Positions 27,939 through 38,074 of a stretch of DNA of 54,423 nucleotides are shown piece after piece. A program made the position numbers and the translations under genes. The stretch is from an uncultured Clostridia bacterium (GTDB taxonomy: Bacteria > Bacillota > Clostridia > Christensenellales > DTU072). How positions within the stretch are numbered: the first letter of the stretch is position 1; every line of letters begins with the position of its first letter. The DNA lies in the NCBI GenBank assembly GCA_944349655.1, contig CALVNL010000002.1, positions 69,721-124,143 on the forward strand, in the 5' to 3' direction. The notes beneath the pieces were generated by a model. The model had not been told where the DNA came from, ran no database searches, and saw only the letters and a list, made by a program, of their open reading frames with translations.

Positions 27939-28451
27939 CTATTTACCTCCGAAAAAATCAAGTACGTTGTCGTTTTCGTATTCGCAGAAAATTATTTCGT
28001 AACCGTTGTCGTTCGTCTTTTCCGATTGCCCGACAAGCCGCCACCCGGGAAGTTCGTCCAGATTTTCGTAAAAAACGGTAGCTCCGCCGTCTGCGTCCAC
28101 TTTGGTCACGTAAACCTTGTCGCAATAGGGAAGCATGGTCCGATAAAACATAGCGCCCCCCACTACGAAAATATCTTCTTCCCTATATGCCGATAAAACG
28201 GTTTTCAGTTCCTCGAGACTTTCGCATATCACGCAGTCGTCCCTCTTTTCTCCGCCGGGATACAATACCACGTTGGTGCGGTTGGGTAAAGGCTTCCCTT
28301 GCGGAAAACTTTTCAGCGTGTTGCTGCCCATAACGATAACTTTTCCCGTAGTCGTCCTGCGAAAGAATTTCATATCTTCGGACAGGCGGAACAATAAATC
28401 GTTGTTCTTGCCTATTCCCCATTTTTTATCCACCGCTACAATAGCTTTCAT
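27939..28451 (-). CDS. folA: Dihydrofolate reductase
   Basis: DHFR reduces dihydrofolate to tetrahydrofolate with NADPH. The 170 residues include '[48 protein letters not shown]', with the acidic substrate-binding position in 'SEDMKFF', and '[25 protein letters not shown]'. AAAGGA lies upstream of the ATG. It sits 29 nt downstream of thyA, its functional partner: ThyA generates the dihydrofolate that FolA recycles. Confidence 0.97.
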
Positions 28452-28480
28452 ACGATTTTCCTTTATGTTAAAATTCCCCG

Positions 28481-29311
28481 TTAAATCGCCACGGGCAGTT
28501 TCTGTCCGAGAAGAGTGTAATTGTAATCAACCAGTTCGAAGTCGTCCACCGTGAATTTATAAAAATCCTTTACGTCGGGATTCATAATGAGTTTCGGGGC
28601 TTCGTAAACGGGGTTCTGCAACACTTTTTCCACCACGGGGATATGCCTGTCGTATATGTGCGCGTCGCTGATGACGTGGATAAGTTCCCCCGCCTCCAGT
28701 CCGCTTACCTGAGCAAACATCTTCAGAAGCACCGCATACTGCACCACGTTCCAGTTGTTGGCTACCAGCATATCGTTGCTGCGCTGATTGAGAATACCGT
28801 TCAAAATCTTTCCGCTTACGTTGAAGGTCATGGAATACGCGCAAGGATAAAGGTTCATTTCGTGAAGGTCGGCAAAGTTATAGATATTAGTCAGTATCCT
28901 TCTGCTCTGAGGATTGTTTTTCAGATCGAAAAGCACCCTGTCTACCTGATCGAACTCCCCTTCCTTATAAACGTGTTTCTGCGCAAGCTGATAGCCGTAC
29001 GCCTTGCCTATAGAACCGCTTTCGTCTGCCCACGAGTCCCATATATGGCTGTTCAAATCGTGTATATTGTTGCTCTTTTTTTGCCATATCCATAGAATTT
29101 CGTCCACAGCCGCGCGGAAATTGGTTTTTCTCAAAGTGAGTATGGGAAACTCCTTCCTTAAATCGTAACGGTTGACTACACCGAATTTCTTAATCGTATG
29201 AGCGGGAGTCCCGTCTTCCCATTTCGGGCGGACTTCGAGTTCGTCGTCACGATAACCGTTGCTCAATATATCCGTCATATTTTCGATAAAAATCTTATCC
29301 GCTAAACTCAT
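28481..29311 (-). CDS. thyA: Thymidylate synthase ThyA
   Basis: ThyA methylates dUMP to dTMP using methylenetetrahydrofolate. The active-site cysteine is C157 in 'LYPCAYSMTF', and 'QRSNDMLVANNWNVVQYAVLLKMFAQVSGLEAGELIHVISDAHIYDRH' carries the conserved nucleotide-binding and folate residues. The 276-residue length fits the family. GGAGG precedes the ATG. It heads the operon; a possible promoter (TTGACA at 29368-29373, 18 nt, TAATGT at 29344-29349, minus strand) has a poor -10, so promoter placement is uncertain. Confidence 0.97.
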   Translation of the reverse strand: MSLADKIFIENMTDILSNGYRDDELEVRPKWEDGTPAHTIKKFGVVNRYDLRKEFPILTLRKTNFRAAVDEILWIWQKKSNNIHDLNSHIWDSWADESGSIGKAYGYQLAQKHVYKEGEFDQVDRVLFDLKNNPQSRRILTNIYNFADLHEMNLYPCAYSMTFNVSGKILNGILNQRSNDMLVANNWNVVQYAVLLKMFAQVSGLEAGELIHVISDAHIYDRHIPVVEKVLQNPVYEAPKLIMNPDVKDFYKFTVDDFELVDYNYTLLGQKLPVAI

Positions 29312-29519: not shown

Positions 29520-32500
29520 TTGCAACAAATCTACAAGAAATATAAAGAACGTTTTATAGAAATAAGCGGCAGAAACCGCAGTCTTTTTACAAAAAATATA
29601 GTAAAAAAATACACCTATGACCTCGGCGCAGTCCTCGAACATCTGGACGTGGACGAATTCCTCGCTTTCTTGTGGCAACGTAAATCTTCTTTTACGATAA
29701 TGAGCGACAAAATAAGCAAGAAGATGGCCAAGCAGGAGAGCAAATTAGCGGAAGCGGCAAAAGAAGAGGGCGAAACCGTCAGAGCAAAAAGCGACAACAC
29801 CATCCTTACGAGGAACATCGCCGACCTCAAATACCTCAAACGCGAAGTGGAAGATATTCAGAAGGAAACCGGTAAATACGACTTGTTTATCGGTTATCCT
29901 TACATTTTCGGAAAAATAGGACAGGATATACAGCTGAAAGCCCCGCTTTTACTCTTTCCCGTCACTATGGAAACGGAAAAGGATACCGTGGTTTTGCGTC
30001 ACGTTCCAAATCAGCCCGTTACCGTAAACAAAAGTTTCGTTCTTGCCTACTGCAAGGAACACGGTATAAAAAACGACAATATCCTGCAGGAATTCGATCC
30101 TCTGAACGACGACACCTTCGCTACCGTTTACGACGTTGTAGACTATCTCAACAACGCCGGATTCAAAATAAAATACGTAAAACGCAAAGGGATAGTTTCC
30201 TTCGACCCCGTCAAGGAAATCAAAACCGAAGATCTGGAAATTAAAAATATGGCGGTTTTAGGCCGTTTCCCTCTCGCCAATCCTATCTACAACGACTACC
30301 TACTGTTGGAAAAGAACAATCTTTCCACTCCGAGTATAGATTTGCTGTTGCAGGGAAAAAGTCAGAAAGAACGCAGAAAAAACCGCACTCCCATAACTTA
30401 TACCATAAACGACCTCGATTACGCGCAGGAAAACGCTATCGAGAAAATCAACAACTGCTCCAACCTCGTTATCTACGGACCTCCGGGAACCGGTAAATCC
30501 CAGACCATAGTCAACATAATAAGCGACGCCCTCTGCAAAAACCGCAGAGTACTCGTCGTCAGCCAGAAACAGGCTGCGTTGGACGTCGTATTTTCCAGGT
30601 TAGGAAAACTGAATGCCAAAGCTATGCTTATTCCCGACCCCGAAAAGGATAAAATCGCCTTTTTCGACCGTATCAAGCAGATGCATAAACAGATTCTGCA
30701 CGACGATTACGACGCCAATCAGAAACGTTATCAGACGTACGAATTCAATATAAATAAAGAAATAGCCACCCTCGAAAGTATTTCCGACACGCTTTTCACC
30801 AAAACCGACTTCGGACTTACTTTGCAGGAAATGTATGCTCAAAGCTACAATATCGGAAAGGATACAAAGGACTATAAACTTTATACCGAACTTCTGAAAA
30901 CCGATATAATCGAGCGTACTTATCAGCCGCTTTACGACGATTTGAAGTATATTTCCGATAAAAATATACCTAAACTGTACGTTAATCGCGAGGAAATGAT
31001 TAAGCAAAACCCGATGATAACGCATATCCGCGACGACCTCGATATGCATCGGTTGAAGGAAGCGCACGCCTTTTTGGGTAAACTTATAAATTCCGAAAAA
31101 CCGCCTTTCGATTTTTCCAGATACCCCAACAGCCGTTATCTGACCACTTTTTACCTGGAAAAAGCCGCCACAAACCGTCCCGATCTTGCCCGCATAGCGG
31201 ATATGATTACCAAAATTCAGCACCCCGCCCTCGCCAACTGGACGGCGATAAGTCTTTTTCCCGTATTCTGGCCCGTTTATCCTTTCCTGCGATACAAATA
31301 CACCCGCTTGCGCAAGGATATAGAAATCGACCTCAACGTGGCTTTAAAGGGATTGACCGATTACGAAAAACAGTTCACCATTCTGCAAACCGTCCTCGAC
31401 GACCAAGGTTATGCTCTGGCTATGGGCGGTATCCTTAACGGTAACTACGCTCTTTTACGCAATCTTTCCGACGCTTTGGAAAATTACGTTACCATCAGAG
31501 ATATGAACAAATCCATCGCCGACCTCAGCGACGAAATAAAAGAAATACTGGATTTCGCTTACGAAAATTCCACTAAAACTCTTCGCGACTTCAACGCCGT
31601 ACTCGGTAAAGTCCTGCCTATGCGCATTTACCACGAAATTATCCGTAACGACGCCTATATCGAAAGCAAACTTTCCAAAACAGTCGGTTTCGACAGTATG
31701 CGTGAACGCATTCTTAAACTTAAAGCCGATCAGAGAGAACTCACCAAGTCGCTGGCTATGGATAAATTCGCTATAGATTATCTCAATTACTACGACAACA
31801 GTCCCGACGCAAAGGATTATCTGTATCAGATACAAAAACAACGCGCGCTTTGGCCTATCCGCAGAATGATGGAATATTTCGACGAATTCTTATTCCGTCT
31901 TTTCCCCTGCTGGCTCCTTTCTCCGCAGACCGTCAGCACCATTTTCCCCTTGAAAAGAGGTATGTTCGACCTGGTGGTTTTCGACGAAGCCAGTCAGATG
32001 TTTATAGAAAACGCTCTGCCCACCATTTACAGAGGCAAAAATATAGTAGTCGCCGGCGACAGCAAACAACTTCGTCCTTCCTCGGGCTTTGTAAAACGTT
32101 ATCAGGCAGACGACAGCTTCGACGCGAATATGGACCTCTCCACGCAGGCGGCGCTGGAAGTGGAATCCTTGCTGGATCTTGCTACGGCAAAATACACTCC
32201 CGTTAATCTCGTTTACCACTACAGGAGCAGTTTTTCCGAACTTATCGACTTCAGCAATATGGCGTTTTACGAAAACAAACTTCAGATTGCACCCAATATT
32301 ACCATAGACAAAGCCCATCCGCCCATTGAACGTATAAAAGTAAGAGGAATATGGCAAAATCGTCACAACCACGAAGAAGCCGTTGCCGTCGTTAAACTCG
32401 TGCGTTCCATTTTCCGTGAAAGAGAATACAACGAAAGCATAGGTATCGTCACTTTCAACAACGAACAAAAAGAGTATATCGAAGATATGCTCGACGCCGA

Positions 32501-33266
32501 AGCCGATAAAGTATCGGTATTCCGCAGACAGCTTTACAACGAACAGAACCGCATCGAAGACGGCGAAAACCGTTCCATTTTCGTCAAGAACCTCGAAAAC
32601 GTTCAGGGCGACGAACGCGATATCATAATTTTCAGCATAGGCTACGCCAAAAACGACCTCGACAGAGTGGTGGCGCAATTCGGTTCGCTTTCGATGGAAG
32701 GCGGCGAAAACCGTCTTAACGTGGCGATAACCCGCGCCAAGAAAAAAATATACGTCGTCACCAGCATCGAACCCGAAGAACTGGACAAAGTGGAAACCAC
32801 CAAAAACAACGGACCCAAACTTCTCAAAAAATATCTCCAGTACGTCCGTGCGGTAAGTTCCGGCAAACAGGAGGAGGTCAGAAAAATACTTTCTACCTTC
32901 GACTCTCATCCCCTGCCCGATATGCCTGCGGGAGCTTATGAAGACCAGATTAAAGAAGGCCTGGAAGAAATGGGTTATAAAGTTTACACCAACCTCGGTA
33001 ATACCTATTACAAACTTTCTCTCGGCGTTTACGACGAGGAATTCGGACGTTTCGTCCTCGGGATTGAATGCGATTATCAGGCTTACCGCTCCAGTGACAG
33101 CGTACTGGAACGCGACGTTTACAGAATTAAATTCCTGGAAAGCCGCGGGTGGCGTATCGTAAGAGTATGGTCGAGAGACTGGTGGACCTCCCGTAAAAAG
33201 GTTTTGGAAAACCTCTCGGCAATCATTGAAAAAGAAAAAGAACGGCTCCGCAAGAATGCGTCCTGA
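29520..33266 (+). CDS. SF1 (UPF1/Dna2-like) helicase with DUF4011-like N-terminus and C-terminal restriction-endonuclease-like domain
   Basis: The 1248-residue protein starts with TTG behind GGGAGGAG. The N-terminus 'RFIEISGRNRSLF' resembles the DUF4011 signature. The SF1 motifs are split: Walker A 'GPPGTGKSQT' (about 320-329), then about 490 residues of largely helical insertion with a short hydrophobic patch near 580-590, then motif II 'VFDEASQM' (about 820-827), motif III 'VVAGDSKQLRPS', 'NVQGDERDIIIFSIGY' (about 1026) and motif VI 'NVAITRAKKKIYV' (about 1066). Residues about 1134-1248 resemble a Vsr/DUF559 nuclease: 'YEDQIKEGLEEMGYKV', 'LGIECDYQAYRSSDSVLERDVYRIKFLESRGWRIVRVWSRDWW'. This architecture occurs among anti-phage and genome-maintenance proteins. 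It stands alone, flanked by its own promoter and terminator, without partner genes, so defence is an inference. Confidence 0.88.
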   Translation: MQQIYKKYKERFIEISGRNRSLFTKNIVKKYTYDLGAVLEHLDVDEFLAFLWQRKSSFTIMSDKISKKMAKQESKLAEAAKEEGETVRAKSDNTILTRNIADLKYLKREVEDIQKETGKYDLFIGYPYIFGKIGQDIQLKAPLLLFPVTMETEKDTVVLRHVPNQPVTVNKSFVLAYCKEHGIKNDNILQEFDPLNDDTFATVYDVVDYLNNAGFKIKYVKRKGIVSFDPVKEIKTEDLEIKNMAVLGRFPLANPIYNDYLLLEKNNLSTPSIDLLLQGKSQKERRKNRTPITYTINDLDYAQENAIEKINNCSNLVIYGPPGTGKSQTIVNIISDALCKNRRVLVVSQKQAALDVVFSRLGKLNAKAMLIPDPEKDKIAFFDRIKQMHKQILHDDYDANQKRYQTYEFNINKEIATLESISDTLFTKTDFGLTLQEMYAQSYNIGKDTKDYKLYTELLKTDIIERTYQPLYDDLKYISDKNIPKLYVNREEMIKQNPMITHIRDDLDMHRLKEAHAFLGKLINSEKPPFDFSRYPNSRYLTTFYLEKAATNRPDLARIADMITKIQHPALANWTAISLFPVFWPVYPFLRYKYTRLRKDIEIDLNVALKGLTDYEKQFTILQTVLDDQGYALAMGGILNGNYALLRNLSDALENYVTIRDMNKSIADLSDEIKEILDFAYENSTKTLRDFNAVLGKVLPMRIYHEIIRNDAYIESKLSKTVGFDSMRERILKLKADQRELTKSLAMDKFAIDYLNYYDNSPDAKDYLYQIQKQRALWPIRRMMEYFDEFLFRLFPCWLLSPQTVSTIFPLKRGMFDLVVFDEASQMFIENALPTIYRGKNIVVAGDSKQLRPSSGFVKRYQADDSFDANMDLSTQAALEVESLLDLATAKYTPVNLVYHYRSSFSELIDFSNMAFYENKLQIAPNITIDKAHPPIERIKVRGIWQNRHNHEEAVAVVKLVRSIFREREYNESIGIVTFNNEQKEYIEDMLDAEADKVSVFRRQLYNEQNRIEDGENRSIFVKNLENVQGDERDIIIFSIGYAKNDLDRVVAQFGSLSMEGGENRLNVAITRAKKKIYVVTSIEPEELDKVETTKNNGPKLLKKYLQYVRAVSSGKQEEVRKILSTFDSHPLPDMPAGAYEDQIKEGLEEMGYKVYTNLGNTYYKLSLGVYDEEFGRFVLGIECDYQAYRSSDSVLERDVYRIKFLESRGWRIVRVWSRDWWTSRKKVLENLSAIIEKEKERLRKNAS

Positions 33267-33289: not shown

Positions 33290-33329
33290 GCGGAAAATCT
33301 TTTTATAAGGTTTTCCGCTTTTATTTTTT
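33290..33329 (+). terminator. Intrinsic terminator after the helicase gene
   Basis: GCGGAAAA (33290-33297) pairs with TTTTCCGC (33311-33318), followed on the plus strand by TTTTATTTTTT. The T-tract overlaps the last codons of the convergent ddl gene. Confidence 0.85.
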
Positions 33330-34421
33330 AAGCGGAAGCAGTTTTTTAGCTCCCTTTTCGGCGTAGTTCTTTAACACGTCGGAGGCGAAATCACACAACA
33401 AGCCGCGTTTCCTTTCAAATTCCGCTATTGCGCTTTCAACGGCGTTTTCCGCTACGTCGGCTATCTCCAGTCCCTCGCTCTTGAAAAGATAACAGGCCAG
33501 CGACCCGGGTACGGAATTTATTTCGTTTACGTAGAGTTTACCGTTTTCGTAAAGATAATCTATTCTTACCGGACCTTTCAATTCCAGCAAAAGATAAATT
33601 TCTTTACTGGTACGACGGATTCTTTCCCGAAGTTTTGCGTCGATTTTTGCGGGAATTTCCCTCTGTGAACCGTCGCTTCCTTCATATTTGTCGTAAAAAT
33701 CCATAAATTCGCTCTTGAACACGGGATGTTCCACTTCGCTTATCACCACGCCGTCTTTCGTGGAACAAACGGCGCAGTTATATTCTTCGAAATTTTCCAA
33801 AGCCCTCTCACACAGCACCTTCTCGTCGAATTGCGTGGAAAAAGCCAACCCTTTTTCCAGTTCCTCACGGTTTCGGACGTAAGATATGCCTACGCTGGAA
33901 CCGAGTCTTGCGGGCTTCAGAATAACGGGATAACCCAATTCTTCCACTTTCGAAACTTTTCCCCCTTTACGGTAAACCCTGTAGTTTACTACGGGAAAAC
34001 GGAATTTTTCCAGAAAATATTTTGTAAGCACTTTGTCCATACAAATGCCGCTCCCCACAGGGTCGGAAGAGGTATAAGGTATACCTACGGTCTCGAAATA
34101 TCCGCTTAAGCTTCCGTTTTCGCCCACGCCGCCGTGATTGCAGACCAAGACGCAGTCGATTTTATAATGAGCGTACCCGAAACGTTTTTTTACTGCCATC
34201 AGTCCGGGTCTGAAAGTGGTTTCCTTTAATTTCTTTATATCGAATTTTGCATAGAAGGAAACGTCTTTCAACGCCTCTCCCGTCCAGAAAAGTCCCTCTT
34301 TAAGATATACGGGATAGACCTGAAAACGGTTTTTTATCGCGTTATATACCGACAAAGCCGTTATGACGGAAATATCGTGTTCGCAACTCTCTCCACCGAA
34401 AACCAGCGCAAGCGTCTTCAA
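33321..34421 (-). CDS. ddl: D-alanine--D-alanine ligase
   Basis: Ddl is an ATP-grasp enzyme that joins two D-alanines for peptidoglycan precursors. The motifs are 'LVFGGESCEHDISVITA', 'HGGVGENGSLSGYFETVGIPYTSSD', 'PVILKPARLGSSVGI', 'GPVRIDYLYENGKLYVNEINSVPGSLACYLF', including the metal-binding acid and E-I-N segment. The 366-residue length is typical. The start is TTG, six bases after AGGAGG. It follows the Mur ligase gene by ten bases, so D-Ala-D-Ala synthesis and its addition to the precursor are encoded together. Confidence 0.96.
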   Translation of the reverse strand: MKTLALVFGGESCEHDISVITALSVYNAIKNRFQVYPVYLKEGLFWTGEALKDVSFYAKFDIKKLKETTFRPGLMAVKKRFGYAHYKIDCVLVCNHGGVGENGSLSGYFETVGIPYTSSDPVGSGICMDKVLTKYFLEKFRFPVVNYRVYRKGGKVSKVEELGYPVILKPARLGSSVGISYVRNREELEKGLAFSTQFDEKVLCERALENFEEYNCAVCSTKDGVVISEVEHPVFKSEFMDFYDKYEGSDGSQREIPAKIDAKLRERIRRTSKEIYLLLELKGPVRIDYLYENGKLYVNEINSVPGSLACYLFKSEGLEIADVAENAVESAIAEFERKRGLLCDFASDVLKNYAEKGAKKLLPLKK

Positions 34422-34431
34422 TCTTTACCTC

Positions 34432-35952
34432 CTAATACACGTCGGGTAAATCGTTCTGCAGGAACAGGACGTCGTCTTTTCGAAGAATTTTTCCGAATGC
34501 CGACTGAGCTTTCCGCAAATCGGAATATCGGTATATTTCTCCCGAAAATCCTCCCGCTCTCAATCCCGCTCCGACGGTTTTGGCGTTTCTGCCGCACAGA
34601 ATGACTGCGTCGGCGTGCGCGGAAAGATTCCGTCCGAGTTCGGTATTCAGCTTTCCGTTGTACCTGCCGCCTTCCACTATTCCCTGCGACAAAACCACTT
34701 TCCTGCCGGGAAACAAGTCGAGAACCTCCAACGCGCTCCTTACTCCGACTAAGTTCGAATTGTAGCTGTCGTCTAATATGTGTATGCCGTTGGCGTAAAT
34801 ATATTCCAGTCTGTGAGGAACGGGGGTAAGAGACTCTACTGCCGTCTTTATATCTTCGGCGCTCACCCCCATCTGTAACGCAAGAGCCGCGCATAATGTT
34901 ATATTTATAATGTTGTGTTTTCCTAAAAGCTTTGTTCGGATATCTATACTTCCGTTTTCATACACTATACGGAAACTACTCCCGTCTTTGGTAAGCTGTA
35001 CGTTGTCGGCATATACGTCGCCTTCCTTGTTACAACAGACCATTATTTTGCCGCCGCGATGTTCCCGATACATTTTAAGAGCGTACTTGTCGTTACAGTT
35101 GAACACGGAGATTTTTTTCGTGCCTTTCGACAATTCGCTTTTTTCCAAAAACACGTTGTGAAGAGACTTGAACGTCGCCAGATGTTGCGGACAAACTCCC
35201 GTCGTAATACTGTAATCGGGATGTATTTCCTTTGTAAGAAGCCTGATATCCCCTCTCCTTCTCGCGCCGGCTTCGGCTATAAAAACTTCTTCCCTGCCGC
35301 TCATCTTCTCTACCGTAAAAGCTATCCCCATAGGCGTGTTGAAATTGCCTTCGGTTGCTATAACCGAATATTTCCTTTCCAACATAGACGCAAGGATATT
35401 TTTACAGGCGGTTTTGCCGTAGCTTCCGGTTATCATAATTTTTATCGCGTGGCTTTCACGCAGTTTTTCCATTGCTTTGCGGAAAAAAATTCGATTTTTC
35501 TTTTCAAAATGCGGATTAGTAACGCTTAAAGCTAAAAACGTATATAAAGGACTGACTGCGACCGTTACGAAAACGCCGTAAAGATATCCGTTTCCCTTTA
35601 TTACCGCAACGCAAGACGCCAAAGACGCTAACGGCAATGCGAGCGTAACGTAAAAGGATGCTTTCGCCCTATCTGTAAATTTCAGTTTGGTACGGTAATT
35701 TTTTATAATCAGAATAAGAACGGCGGTCACGATACATTCGTAAAGCAGAACTATCGCTTCGTCGAGCACGGAATCCGATAACAACGCCCCGAAACAGACA
35801 TAGGGAGTTGCCAAAAGCAAATTAAGAAAAGAAAAAGCAACCCACCTTTTATTTATTTCGGTTTTGTAGTTTGCGTTTTGCGCCAGGCAAAGAAATCTTA
35901 ATTGCGTCACGGCGACCTGCGCCACGGCAATCAGTCCGATTATCCACTTCAT
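34432..35952 (-). CDS. Membrane-fused Mur ligase, probable MurF-type UDP-MurNAc-tripeptide:D-Ala-D-Ala ligase
   Basis: The 506-residue protein begins with about 150 residues of four or five membrane helices (roughly 3-25, 38-58, 65-84, 100-118 and 124-143) in place of the usual soluble MurF N-terminal domain. The central ligase domain follows with the P-loop 'ITGSYGKTACKN' at about 173, 'EAGARRRGDIRLLTKEIHPDYSITTGVCPQHLATF', 'NCND' and 'GKHNIINITLCAALALQMGV'. The C-terminal domain has the MurF-like 'ILDDSYNSNLVGVRSALEVLDLFPGRKVVLSQGIVEGG'. The adjacent ddl strongly suggests D-Ala-D-Ala addition, although a paralogue with another substrate is possible. ATG at 35952 is preferred over GTG at 35958. 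The first 104 nt overlap the alpha/beta hydrolase in another frame. Confidence 0.88.
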   Translation of the reverse strand: MKWIIGLIAVAQVAVTQLRFLCLAQNANYKTEINKRWVAFSFLNLLLATPYVCFGALLSDSVLDEAIVLLYECIVTAVLILIIKNYRTKLKFTDRAKASFYVTLALPLASLASCVAVIKGNGYLYGVFVTVAVSPLYTFLALSVTNPHFEKKNRIFFRKAMEKLRESHAIKIMITGSYGKTACKNILASMLERKYSVIATEGNFNTPMGIAFTVEKMSGREEVFIAEAGARRRGDIRLLTKEIHPDYSITTGVCPQHLATFKSLHNVFLEKSELSKGTKKISVFNCNDKYALKMYREHRGGKIMVCCNKEGDVYADNVQLTKDGSSFRIVYENGSIDIRTKLLGKHNIINITLCAALALQMGVSAEDIKTAVESLTPVPHRLEYIYANGIHILDDSYNSNLVGVRSALEVLDLFPGRKVVLSQGIVEGGRYNGKLNTELGRNLSAHADAVILCGRNAKTVGAGLRAGGFSGEIYRYSDLRKAQSAFGKILRKDDVLFLQNDLPDVY

Positions 35953-36682
35953 ATCCACCGCCCGAAAGAAATTGATTTAGAACGGACAGGAATATCCCGT
36001 GAGCTTCTATGTATGCGTAATGTCCCGCGCCTTTTATCACCACGAGACCGCTGCCTTCGATACGCCTGTGCATTCTCTTAGCCATATATATGGGCGTATC
36101 CTTGTCTTTGTCACCCCAAAAAAGCAAAACCGGCAAAGTTATTTTTTCCAGTTCCGCCGTCTGATCCTCGTTGACTACGTTGATAAACGTCTGCTTCATC
36201 GCTCCGCTTAGCACACGATAATCAGAACTTCCCGCTTTATGCGGAATATTCAGTTTTTTTAATAGTTTATGTCTGAAAACCTTACAGTAATACCGTATCC
36301 CTCTCCTCGGGCGAAGCCCTGCACCGTCGCAGATAACCACTCCGTCGAGAAGATAACCGTATTTTGCCGCAAGACGTAACGCCACACGTCCCCCGAAAGA
36401 GTGACCCACCACCGTTACCTTCGTCATACGATAGGCGTTTATTATATCCACGACGCCTTTGGCATAGTCTTCCACCGTAAGAGGATAATCAGGATGCGGC
36501 GTCTCCCCGAATCCGTAAAAATCCACCGTCGTTACCCGGCAATACTTGCCTACGAATTGCGCCGCACCCGAAAAAGAGAGGCTGCTCCCTCCCCAACCGT
36601 GCAAAAATATTACGTCTTTGCCTTGTCCGAATTGCCTGTGATAAATTAAAATAAGACCTCCTGCGAACTCCAATAAATGCAA
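35849..36682 (-). CDS. Alpha/beta hydrolase with unusual gene boundaries
   Basis: The fold is clear: oxyanion-hole motif 'FLHGWGGSS', nucleophile elbow 'VVGHSFGGRVALRL', an acid in 'LPVLLFWGDKDKDTP' and the last histidine in 'IKGAGHYAYIEA'. The expected family end is near 'FLSVLNQFLS'; here translation continues about 37 residues (G-G-G-Y-E-V-D...) through the start of the Mur ligase gene. The start is also odd. The first in-frame start is TTG at 36682 with AAGGA upstream, inside rimI, but a strong GGAGG (36657-36661) sits ten bases before ATT at 36646, where the protein would begin Y-H-R-Q-F-G-Q-G-K as relatives do. Its substrate is unknown. Confidence 0.85.
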   Translation of the reverse strand: MHLLEFAGGLILIYHRQFGQGKDVIFLHGWGGSSLSFSGAAQFVGKYCRVTTVDFYGFGETPHPDYPLTVEDYAKGVVDIINAYRMTKVTVVGHSFGGRVALRLAAKYGYLLDGVVICDGAGLRPRRGIRYYCKVFRHKLLKKLNIPHKAGSSDYRVLSGAMKQTFINVVNEDQTAELEKITLPVLLFWGDKDKDTPIYMAKRMHRRIEGSGLVVIKGAGHYAYIEAHGIFLSVLNQFLSGGGYEVDNRTDCRGAGRRDAIKISLPGAKRKLQNRNK

Positions 36683-37098
36683 CAGTTTTCCTTGTCGGAG
36701 TAATACCCTTTCCGAATTCCGACAAATTCAAAACCTGCCGCTTCGTAAAGTTTTCTCGCAGGTAAATTACTTTCTCTGACTTCCAGAGTAAATCTTTTTA
36801 CGCCGTATTTTTTCGCTTTTTCGGAAAAATCTTTTAATACGGCTTTAGCGTAACCTTGTCTGCGGTATTCTTTTCTTACCGCTATGTTCATAATATGACC
36901 TTCGTCGAGTACTTGTGCAAAACCGCCGTAAGCGACTACTTTTCCGTCCTCGCAAATTACGGTATAATGTTTGTTTTCCTGTCCGATTTCCGCACGGATA
37001 AGATTCTCGCTCCAGGCGTCGCCTCCGAAATACTCTTTTTCCAGTTCGGCTATCTGACCGATATATTCTTCTTTCAGAATATCCGCTATATAGCTCAT
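36646..37098 (-). CDS. rimI: Ribosomal protein S18-alanine N-acetyltransferase RimI
   Basis: RimI is a GNAT enzyme that acetylates the N-terminus of S18. The 150 residues include 'HIMNIAVRKEYRRQGYAKAVLKDF' (acetyl-CoA-binding R-x-x-G-x-A) and 'FTLEVRESNLPARKLYEAAGFEFVGIRKGYY', the latter typical of RimI. The start overlaps tsaB by four bases (ATGA). The tsaE-tsaB-rimI order is common across Bacillota and supports the name. Confidence 0.95.
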   Translation of the reverse strand: MSYIADILKEEYIGQIAELEKEYFGGDAWSENLIRAEIGQENKHYTVICEDGKVVAYGGFAQVLDEGHIMNIAVRKEYRRQGYAKAVLKDFSEKAKKYGVKRFTLEVRESNLPARKLYEAAGFEFVGIRKGYYSDKENCCIYWSSQEVLF

Positions 37099-37664
37099 AA
37101 CCCCTTTTCCCTTTCCGCAGAGGACTTTTTGAGATAAAAAGGTTTAGCTTGAGTACAGAACTCTCCTTTTTTAACTTTTTCCACGCAACAACGCAGCAAG
37201 TCCGAAGGGGTCGCTTCCTCGGCTCTGATCTTAAGGCAATCGTAAGACGCGACTTCTTCTTCCGTTAAAGCAAGATATTCGCTTTTCCCTTCCTCGAATA
37301 TTCCGCAATAAAAATTAGCGTGTTTGCAGTCCAGAGTAACCATAGTCTTCCCTTCTTTTCCGCAATAAGGAATTTCCAAAGAAGTCGCTTCAACTATTTT
37401 TTTACCCGTTGCAAACGCAAAGGCGTTGACGGTGGCTACTCCCACCCTTATACCCGTGAATGACCCCGGTCCTACGACTACTCCGAAATAATCGAGGTCT
37501 CTTATGGTCAAGCCGTTTTTTGCCAAAAGTGCGTCAATATGTCTTAAAAGTACGGAGTTGTGCTTTTTCGCACCTTTTTCACTTACGAAAAAATCTTCCT
37601 TATCGTCTTTTTTCAGGGCAAGAATAATAGACTCCGCCGTAGTATCGATAGCTAAAAGTATCAT
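37095..37664 (-). CDS. tsaB: tRNA threonylcarbamoyladenosine biosynthesis protein TsaB
   Basis: TsaB works with TsaD and TsaE to make t6A at position 37 of ANN-decoding tRNAs. The ASKHA-type N-terminus 'MILLAIDTTAESIILALKK', then 'KKHNSVLLRHIDALL' and 'FGVVVGPGSFTGIRVGVATVNAFA' are diagnostic. At 189 residues it is shorter than the 230 of many TsaB proteins, with a reduced C-terminal half. It overlaps both neighbours by four bases (ATGA). No tsaD is in the window. Confidence 0.95.
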   Translation of the reverse strand: MILLAIDTTAESIILALKKDDKEDFFVSEKGAKKHNSVLLRHIDALLAKNGLTIRDLDYFGVVVGPGSFTGIRVGVATVNAFAFATGKKIVEATSLEIPYCGKEGKTMVTLDCKHANFYCGIFEEGKSEYLALTEEEVASYDCLKIRAEEATPSDLLRCCVEKVKKGEFCTQAKPFYLKKSSAEREKGL

Positions 37665-38074
37665 AGTTCCACCCCCTTGACGGTAAATTTCCTTTCGTTC
37701 TCCCCGACGTATTCTATATCCACGGTTATGGTGTTTTTGAGCGAAGGAAACTTATTCCATTCGATGACGCAAACTCCTTCGGGATCGTATAAAAGTTCAT
37801 CAAGCCCCAATTCCTCGGTTTCAGACGGGTCAACTATCCTATACATATCGAAATGATATAATCTGAGCCTGCCCTTATACTCTTTCATAATAGTAAAAGT
37901 GGGACTGGTAACTGTTTCGGCAATTCCCAGTCCCTTTGCAAGTCCTTTGGTAAACGTCGTTTTACCCGCACCCAATTGTCCGTTCAACAATATTACTTCG
38001 CCTCCGCAAAGTTTTTCCGCAATACGTGAACTGAGTGCGGCGGTTTCCGCTTCGCTATGCGTCGTTATCGTCAT
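37661..38074 (-). CDS. tsaE: tRNA threonylcarbamoyladenosine biosynthesis ATPase TsaE
   Basis: TsaE is the ATPase needed for turnover of the TsaBD complex in t6A synthesis. Walker A 'GQLGAGKTTFTKGL' lies at about 32-45, followed by 'VTSPTFTIMKEYKG', 'LYHFDMYRI' and 'VCVIEWNKF'. The 137-residue length is normal. Its start lies 20 nt inside the end of the ECF transporter gene in another frame, and it overlaps tsaB by four bases. Confidence 0.96.
   Translation of the reverse strand: MTITTHSEAETAALSSRIAEKLCGGEVILLNGQLGAGKTTFTKGLAKGLGIAETVTSPTFTIMKEYKGRLRLYHFDMYRIVDPSETEELGLDELLYDPEGVCVIEWNKFPSLKNTITVDIEYVGENERKFTVKGVEL

Follow-up and report, generated by a model that had tools for sequence, protein, structure and literature searches.

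Can a cell rely on a MurF that carries membrane helices where the soluble enzyme grips its nucleotide substrate? This question is raised by one gene in a 54,423-nucleotide stretch (the window) from an uncultured Clostridia bacterium of the order Christensenellales (GCA_944349655.1, contig CALVNL010000002.1, positions 69,721 to 124,143). MurF is taught and drug-targeted as soluble and cytoplasmic, with an N-terminal domain that grips uridine diphosphate (UDP). The gene at 34432-35952 instead encodes a Mur ligase core preceded by a predicted membrane domain. We call this protein TM-MurF (membrane-domain MurF); it is very probably the cell's MurF, working at the membrane. Its features are listed here.

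34432-35952, minus strand: TM-MurF, 506 amino acids, ATG start (open reading frame, Pfam, NCBIfam, hydropathy, AlphaFold2)
35449-35952, minus strand: residues 1-168, five-helix membrane domain replacing the UDP-binding N-terminal domain (AlphaFold2, topology, conservation, Pfam, Foldseek)
35866-35880, minus strand: residues 25-29 with invariant Q25 and Y29 (LQLxxY motif), predicted cytosolic end of helix 1 (identical in all 66 divergent homologues compared)
35659-35676, minus strand: residues 93-98 with invariant T93 and R95, and R98 in at least 90% (KxLxxTxRxKR motif), predicted cytosolic loop before helix 4
34435-35445, minus strand: residues 170-506, Mur ligase middle and C-terminal domains (Pfam; best Foldseek matches are MurF structures)
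35410-35433, minus strand: P-loop ITGSYGKT, residues 174-181
35140-35142, minus strand: K271, invariant, aligned with E. coli MurF K202 (alignment)
34435-34464, minus strand: C-terminal loop FLQNDLPDVY (family consensus FENDLPDNY), where soluble MurF has VK[AG]SRG

A MurF core behind an orphan membrane domain

A preliminary description of the window had placed a Mur ligase here, with four or five hydrophobic helices in place of the MurF N-terminal domain, and had given no strand. The reading frame is real and lies on the minus strand; the plus strand over the same interval is not open, with stop codons throughout. Only Mur_ligase_M (residues 174-358) and Mur_ligase_C (380-497) score above the Pfam cut-off, and the first 165 residues have no significant Pfam match. 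The best NCBIfam match is TIGR01143 (murF). It begins at profile position 65, leaving the N-terminal part of the model unmatched, and scores below its curated cut-off (213.9 versus 288.6 bits). The motifs ITGSYGKT and DDSYNSN are both present and ddl follows directly downstream, as had been described. Identity to soluble MurF is low, at about 25-30%. Three residues, E227, H257 and K271, do not vary across TM-MurFs; in the alignment they correspond to E158, H188 and K202 of E. coli MurF, the last of which is the carbamylated lysine. An AlphaFold2 model made with 42 relatives has a mean predicted local distance difference test score (pLDDT) of 93.3 and a predicted template modelling score (pTM) of 0.90, and a Foldseek search with its core returned MurF structures (4qf5, 4qdi, 4cvm) as the best matches.

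A sequence artefact or chance fusion is ruled out, since the identical layout recurs in more than 70 divergent homologues or loci. The nearest named relative, labelled uncultured Christensenella, is 81% identical. In two TM-MurFs of family f12 (L123, L124), with frames of 622-641 amino acids, the profile match falls into two parts, which suggests an insertion of about 110 residues in the middle domain.

Topology and structure predictions agree on membrane helices, and their number is five. Hydropathy places them before the P-loop at 6-24, 42-60, 67-85, 102-120 and 128-146, numbered from a GTG codon at 35958 that lies two codons upstream of the ATG. The AlphaFold2 helices span 2-26, 35-57, 62-84, 94-117 and 120-132/134-166. 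Lysine and arginine are unequally distributed, with a mean of 4.6 in the loop before helix 2, 7.2 in that before helix 4 and 0.3-0.6 in the other three segments. Positive-inside statistics thus predict an external N-terminus and a cytosolic Mur core.

Most of the 66 membrane domains compared are only 15-22% identical to that of the window protein. Four residues, Q25, Y29, T93 and R95, are nonetheless the same in all of them, and at least 90% keep R98 and a P-x-E motif. All of these residues fall on the predicted cytosolic side. Helices 2 and 3 have apparently been lost in families f23 and f11, which retain both motifs. Invariant polar residues would be needed by a substrate site and not by a mere anchor, and their conservation suggests substrate binding rather than passive anchoring. 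A Pfam scan of the 66 domains gave scattered weak matches, with no family in more than two members, and Foldseek with the membrane domain alone found no PDB match at E <= 0.001. With no convincing Pfam family and no PDB match, the membrane domain is an orphan fold.

The only MurF candidate of the genome

The source genome (96% complete) encodes exactly four Mur ligases: MurC, MurD, MurE and TM-MurF. A search of it for a second, soluble murF found none, and a PF08245 search reported the same four proteins and no separate folC-type ligase. In the dcw cluster, the gene order is rsmH-ftsL-ftsI-murE-mraY-murD-ftsW-murA-ftsQ-ftsZ, where all names but those of the Mur ligases were assigned from the sequences and the order of the genes rather than by a family search. 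Both murE and murD lie in this cluster, no murF stands between murE and mraY, and murC is elsewhere in the genome. The preliminary description had left two options, the cell's only MurF or a paralogue acting on another amide bond, and the absence of a second murF favors the former.

A tree of the middle and C-terminal domains, with MurE as outgroup, recovers TM-MurF as one clade (100/98), sister to a clade of soluble MurFs, the E. coli enzyme among them (99/93). A separate tree with other Mur ligases sets TM-MurF apart from MurC, MurD and MurE; that tree lacked most soluble MurFs, owing to a narrow P-loop pattern, and the sister-group tree includes them.

Soluble and membrane MurF almost never coexist

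A full-length soluble MurF above the cut-off occurs in 17 of the 150 genomes examined from the order, none of which carries TM-MurF. In nearly all the others, the MurF match starts at about profile position 50-76 within a frame of roughly 470-600 amino acids, and about 130 of the 150 have TM-MurF as their sole MurF. Two genomes (G056, G084) have no MurF of either kind, and one (G047) has a soluble fragment only. One soluble-MurF genome (G009) also encodes a very divergent second soluble MurF-like protein (L060, 5664-7112, minus strand), with a branch length of 4.13.

Scores across 292 genomes of the class are bimodal, almost always with one match per genome. TM-MurF accounts for 46 genomes (E <= 1e-142), drawn from its own order and about 15 other families, and the rest, with soluble MurF, score no better than 7.5e-84. 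At the level of the phylum, TM-MurF was found in 25 of 398 genomes. Soluble MurF is missing from 32 of the 33 TM-MurF genomes outside the order. Two metagenome-assembled genomes labelled Erysipelotrichaceae also have TM-MurF. A plasmid search gave only partial, soluble MurF-like matches, and a search of viral contigs found no relative of TM-MurF.

A hydrolase-MurF-Ddl cassette

TM-murF does not travel alone. The order of transcription is tsaE, tsaB, rimI, alpha/beta-hydrolase, TM-murF, ddl, with the neighboring genes placed as follows.

33321-34421, minus strand: ddl, D-Ala-D-Ala ligase of a cassette-specific clade, directly downstream of TM-murF
35849-36682, minus strand: alpha/beta-hydrolase, triad S95-D193-H221
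36646-38074, minus strand: rimI, tsaB and tsaE, ahead of the cassette in most genomes of the order

The genes for the hydrolase, TM-MurF and Ddl stand side by side on one strand in essentially every locus with enough flank. In family f23, whose genomes are near 0.9 Mb (L074, L084), the run hydrolase-TMmurF-ddl-murE-mraY-murD-ftsW is uninterrupted. The 3' end of the hydrolase gene overlaps the start of TM-murF by 104 nt (35849-35952, minus strand), so that the TM-murF ATG lies inside the hydrolase frame. The two genes also overlap in L012 (about 100 nt) and L046 (about 75 nt), and the overlap suggests that they are translationally coupled.

A hydrolase profile matched all 15 TM-MurF genomes tested (E <= 3.4e-88); in 21 soluble-MurF genomes, no match was better than 3.4e-35. 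The triad S95, D193 and H221 is invariant in 73 sequences, and the protein scores well under any NCBIfam cut-off. The cassette Ddl forms one clade, distinct from the Ddl encoded beside soluble murF (100/100), and retains the equivalents of E15, S150, K215 and Y216 in all 78 sequences, the pattern of D-Ala-D-Ala ligases. It reads PGSLAxY in place of the usual PGxTxxS, in a register that is uncertain, as another alignment places the segment differently. One locus of the order itself (L061, family f10) groups with out-of-order lineages in both the MurF and the Ddl trees, and its position in the two suggests that the cassette was transferred whole. The architecture given in the preliminary description stands, and the conserved cassette hydrolase and the invariant cytosolic residues are additions made here.

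On the opposite strand, directly beside the cassette, lies a gene for a helicase-like protein of 1248 amino acids (29520-33266, plus strand). It is kept there in genus and family relatives (L046, L047, L049) at 68-97% identity, and is adjoined by thyA and a dihydrofolate reductase gene (27939-29311, minus strand).

What TM-MurF joins, and to what

MurF function is well supported by these genomic patterns, and the textbook cytoplasmic step probably takes place at the membrane. TM-MurF would use ATP to join D-Ala-D-Ala, supplied by the adjacent Ddl, to a muramyl-tripeptide. The five-helix domain, with its N-terminus outside and its C-terminus in the cytosol, would stand in for the UDP-binding domain and would place the ligase core on the cytosolic surface of the membrane. 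The invariant glutamine, tyrosine, threonine and arginine on that face may take over gripping the pyrophosphate end of the acceptor, either UDP-N-acetylmuramyl (UDP-MurNAc)-tripeptide or an undecaprenyl-linked tripeptide.

Several observations pull the other way. The sister placement hangs on MurE as sole outgroup and involves long branches. G348 is the one genome in which TM-MurF and soluble MurF were found together (C6:2124-3665 and C2:206257-207534); contamination is possible because the TM-MurF lies near a contig end. Finally, the C-terminal loop FENDLPDNY is wholly unlike VK[AG]SRG of soluble MurF, which leaves room for a donor other than free D-Ala-D-Ala.

As acceptor, we slightly favor the UDP-linked form over the lipid-linked one. 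We give roughly even chances to an enzyme that keeps UDP-MurNAc-tripeptide as acceptor and is held beside MraY, channeling its product. This is the simplest arrangement: the catalytic residues are retained and MraY has no type-specific change. It leaves unaccounted for the loss of the uridine-binding domain without a soluble substitute, and the invariant cytosolic residues and orphan fold exceed the needs of an anchor. The alternative is a pathway in reversed order, which we hold to be a real though less than even prospect. Here, TM-MurF would act after MraY (or MurG) and add the dipeptide to undecaprenyl-pyrophosphate-linked MurNAc-tripeptide, much as MurT/GatD acts on Lipid II, with the membrane domain gripping the lipid-pyrophosphate at the former site of the UDP domain. 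In MurE and MurF complexes, the UDP-MurNAc pyrophosphate lies at the boundary of the N-terminal and middle domains, and MurT, which acts on Lipid II, lacks an N-terminal domain that, its authors reason, would likely clash with the membrane (PMC6113224). In TM-MurF, membrane helices replace precisely the UDP-binding domain and bear invariant T, R, Q and Y on the cytosolic face; so exact a swap fits a lipid-linked acceptor. However, no MraY alignment column separates membrane-MurF from soluble-MurF genomes beyond permutation, and the membrane domain could equally bind UDP-MurNAc.

On the donor side, D-Ala-D-Ala likely remains the substrate, and its recognition has probably changed. MurE binds its incoming amino acid partly through the C-terminal loop (PMC3829189), and an ENDLP-type pattern occupies this loop in 71 of 75 TM-MurFs. 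That both enzymes are altered on their donor side, the Ddl in its PGxTxxS motif and MurF in its loop, and that a serine hydrolase with an intact triad is always present, would suit another donor, such as a dipeptide whose C-terminus is altered or blocked, made or unmasked by the hydrolase. We consider this unlikely, given the full retention of the four Ddl residues and the uncertain register of the changed Ddl motif. Further still from what we expect is a paralogue acting on a non-murein amide bond. The low identity to soluble MurF and the different loop would agree with it, but neither the genome nor most of the order has another MurF, ddl linkage is found everywhere, and in f23 the cassette adjoins murE-mraY-murD.

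Consequences for the pathway

In most of one order, and in a patchy set of other lineages within its phylum, a membrane MurF replaces the soluble form as a member of a three-gene module. The finding is relevant to the point at which the lipid stage of peptidoglycan synthesis starts, to the range of bacteria open to MurF inhibitors and to the way an essential step can be exchanged, probably by horizontal transfer. It is conceivable, if short of an even bet, that in many Bacillota a membrane-embedded MurF performs the final Mur ligase step after MraY, adding D-Ala-D-Ala to lipid-linked muramyl-tripeptide, and that the co-inherited Ddl and hydrolase form with it an exchangeable module replacing the soluble MurF/Ddl pair. 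If the acceptor is lipid-linked, the textbook order of the pathway changes. We found no description of a membrane-domain MurF in the open-access literature, where absence is weak evidence; within the literature searched, TM-MurF is a new MurF variant in a three-gene module that we did not find described.

Comparison with known systems

TM-MurF shares with MurF (UDP-N-acetylmuramoyl-tripeptide--D-alanyl-D-alanine ligase; TIGR01143) the middle and C-terminal fold, the P-loop, the Mg/ATP residues, the equivalent of the carbamylated lysine, the DD[SA]YN.N motif and a ddl neighbor. It differs in lacking the UDP-binding N-terminal domain, with five membrane helices instead, in its donor loop and in a TIGR01143 score under the cut-off. 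The cassette Ddl likewise keeps the E15/S150/Y216 signature of D-alanine--D-alanine ligases, whereas it forms a clade apart from the soluble-murF-linked enzymes and has its PGxTxxS motif rewritten. The hydrolase has the fold, the GHSxGG motif and the full triad of EstV-type lipases and esterases, but is a subfamily of its own, with conserved SDY and VVNED, found only with TM-MurF. Finally, MurT of the Lipid II isoglutaminyl synthase MurT/GatD offers an analogy, as a Mur ligase core without a UDP-binding domain and possibly in sharing a membrane-linked substrate. Unlike TM-MurF, MurT lacks membrane helices, and its partner is an amidotransferase; TM-MurF groups with MurF and adjoins a hydrolase and ddl, with no GatD neighbor.
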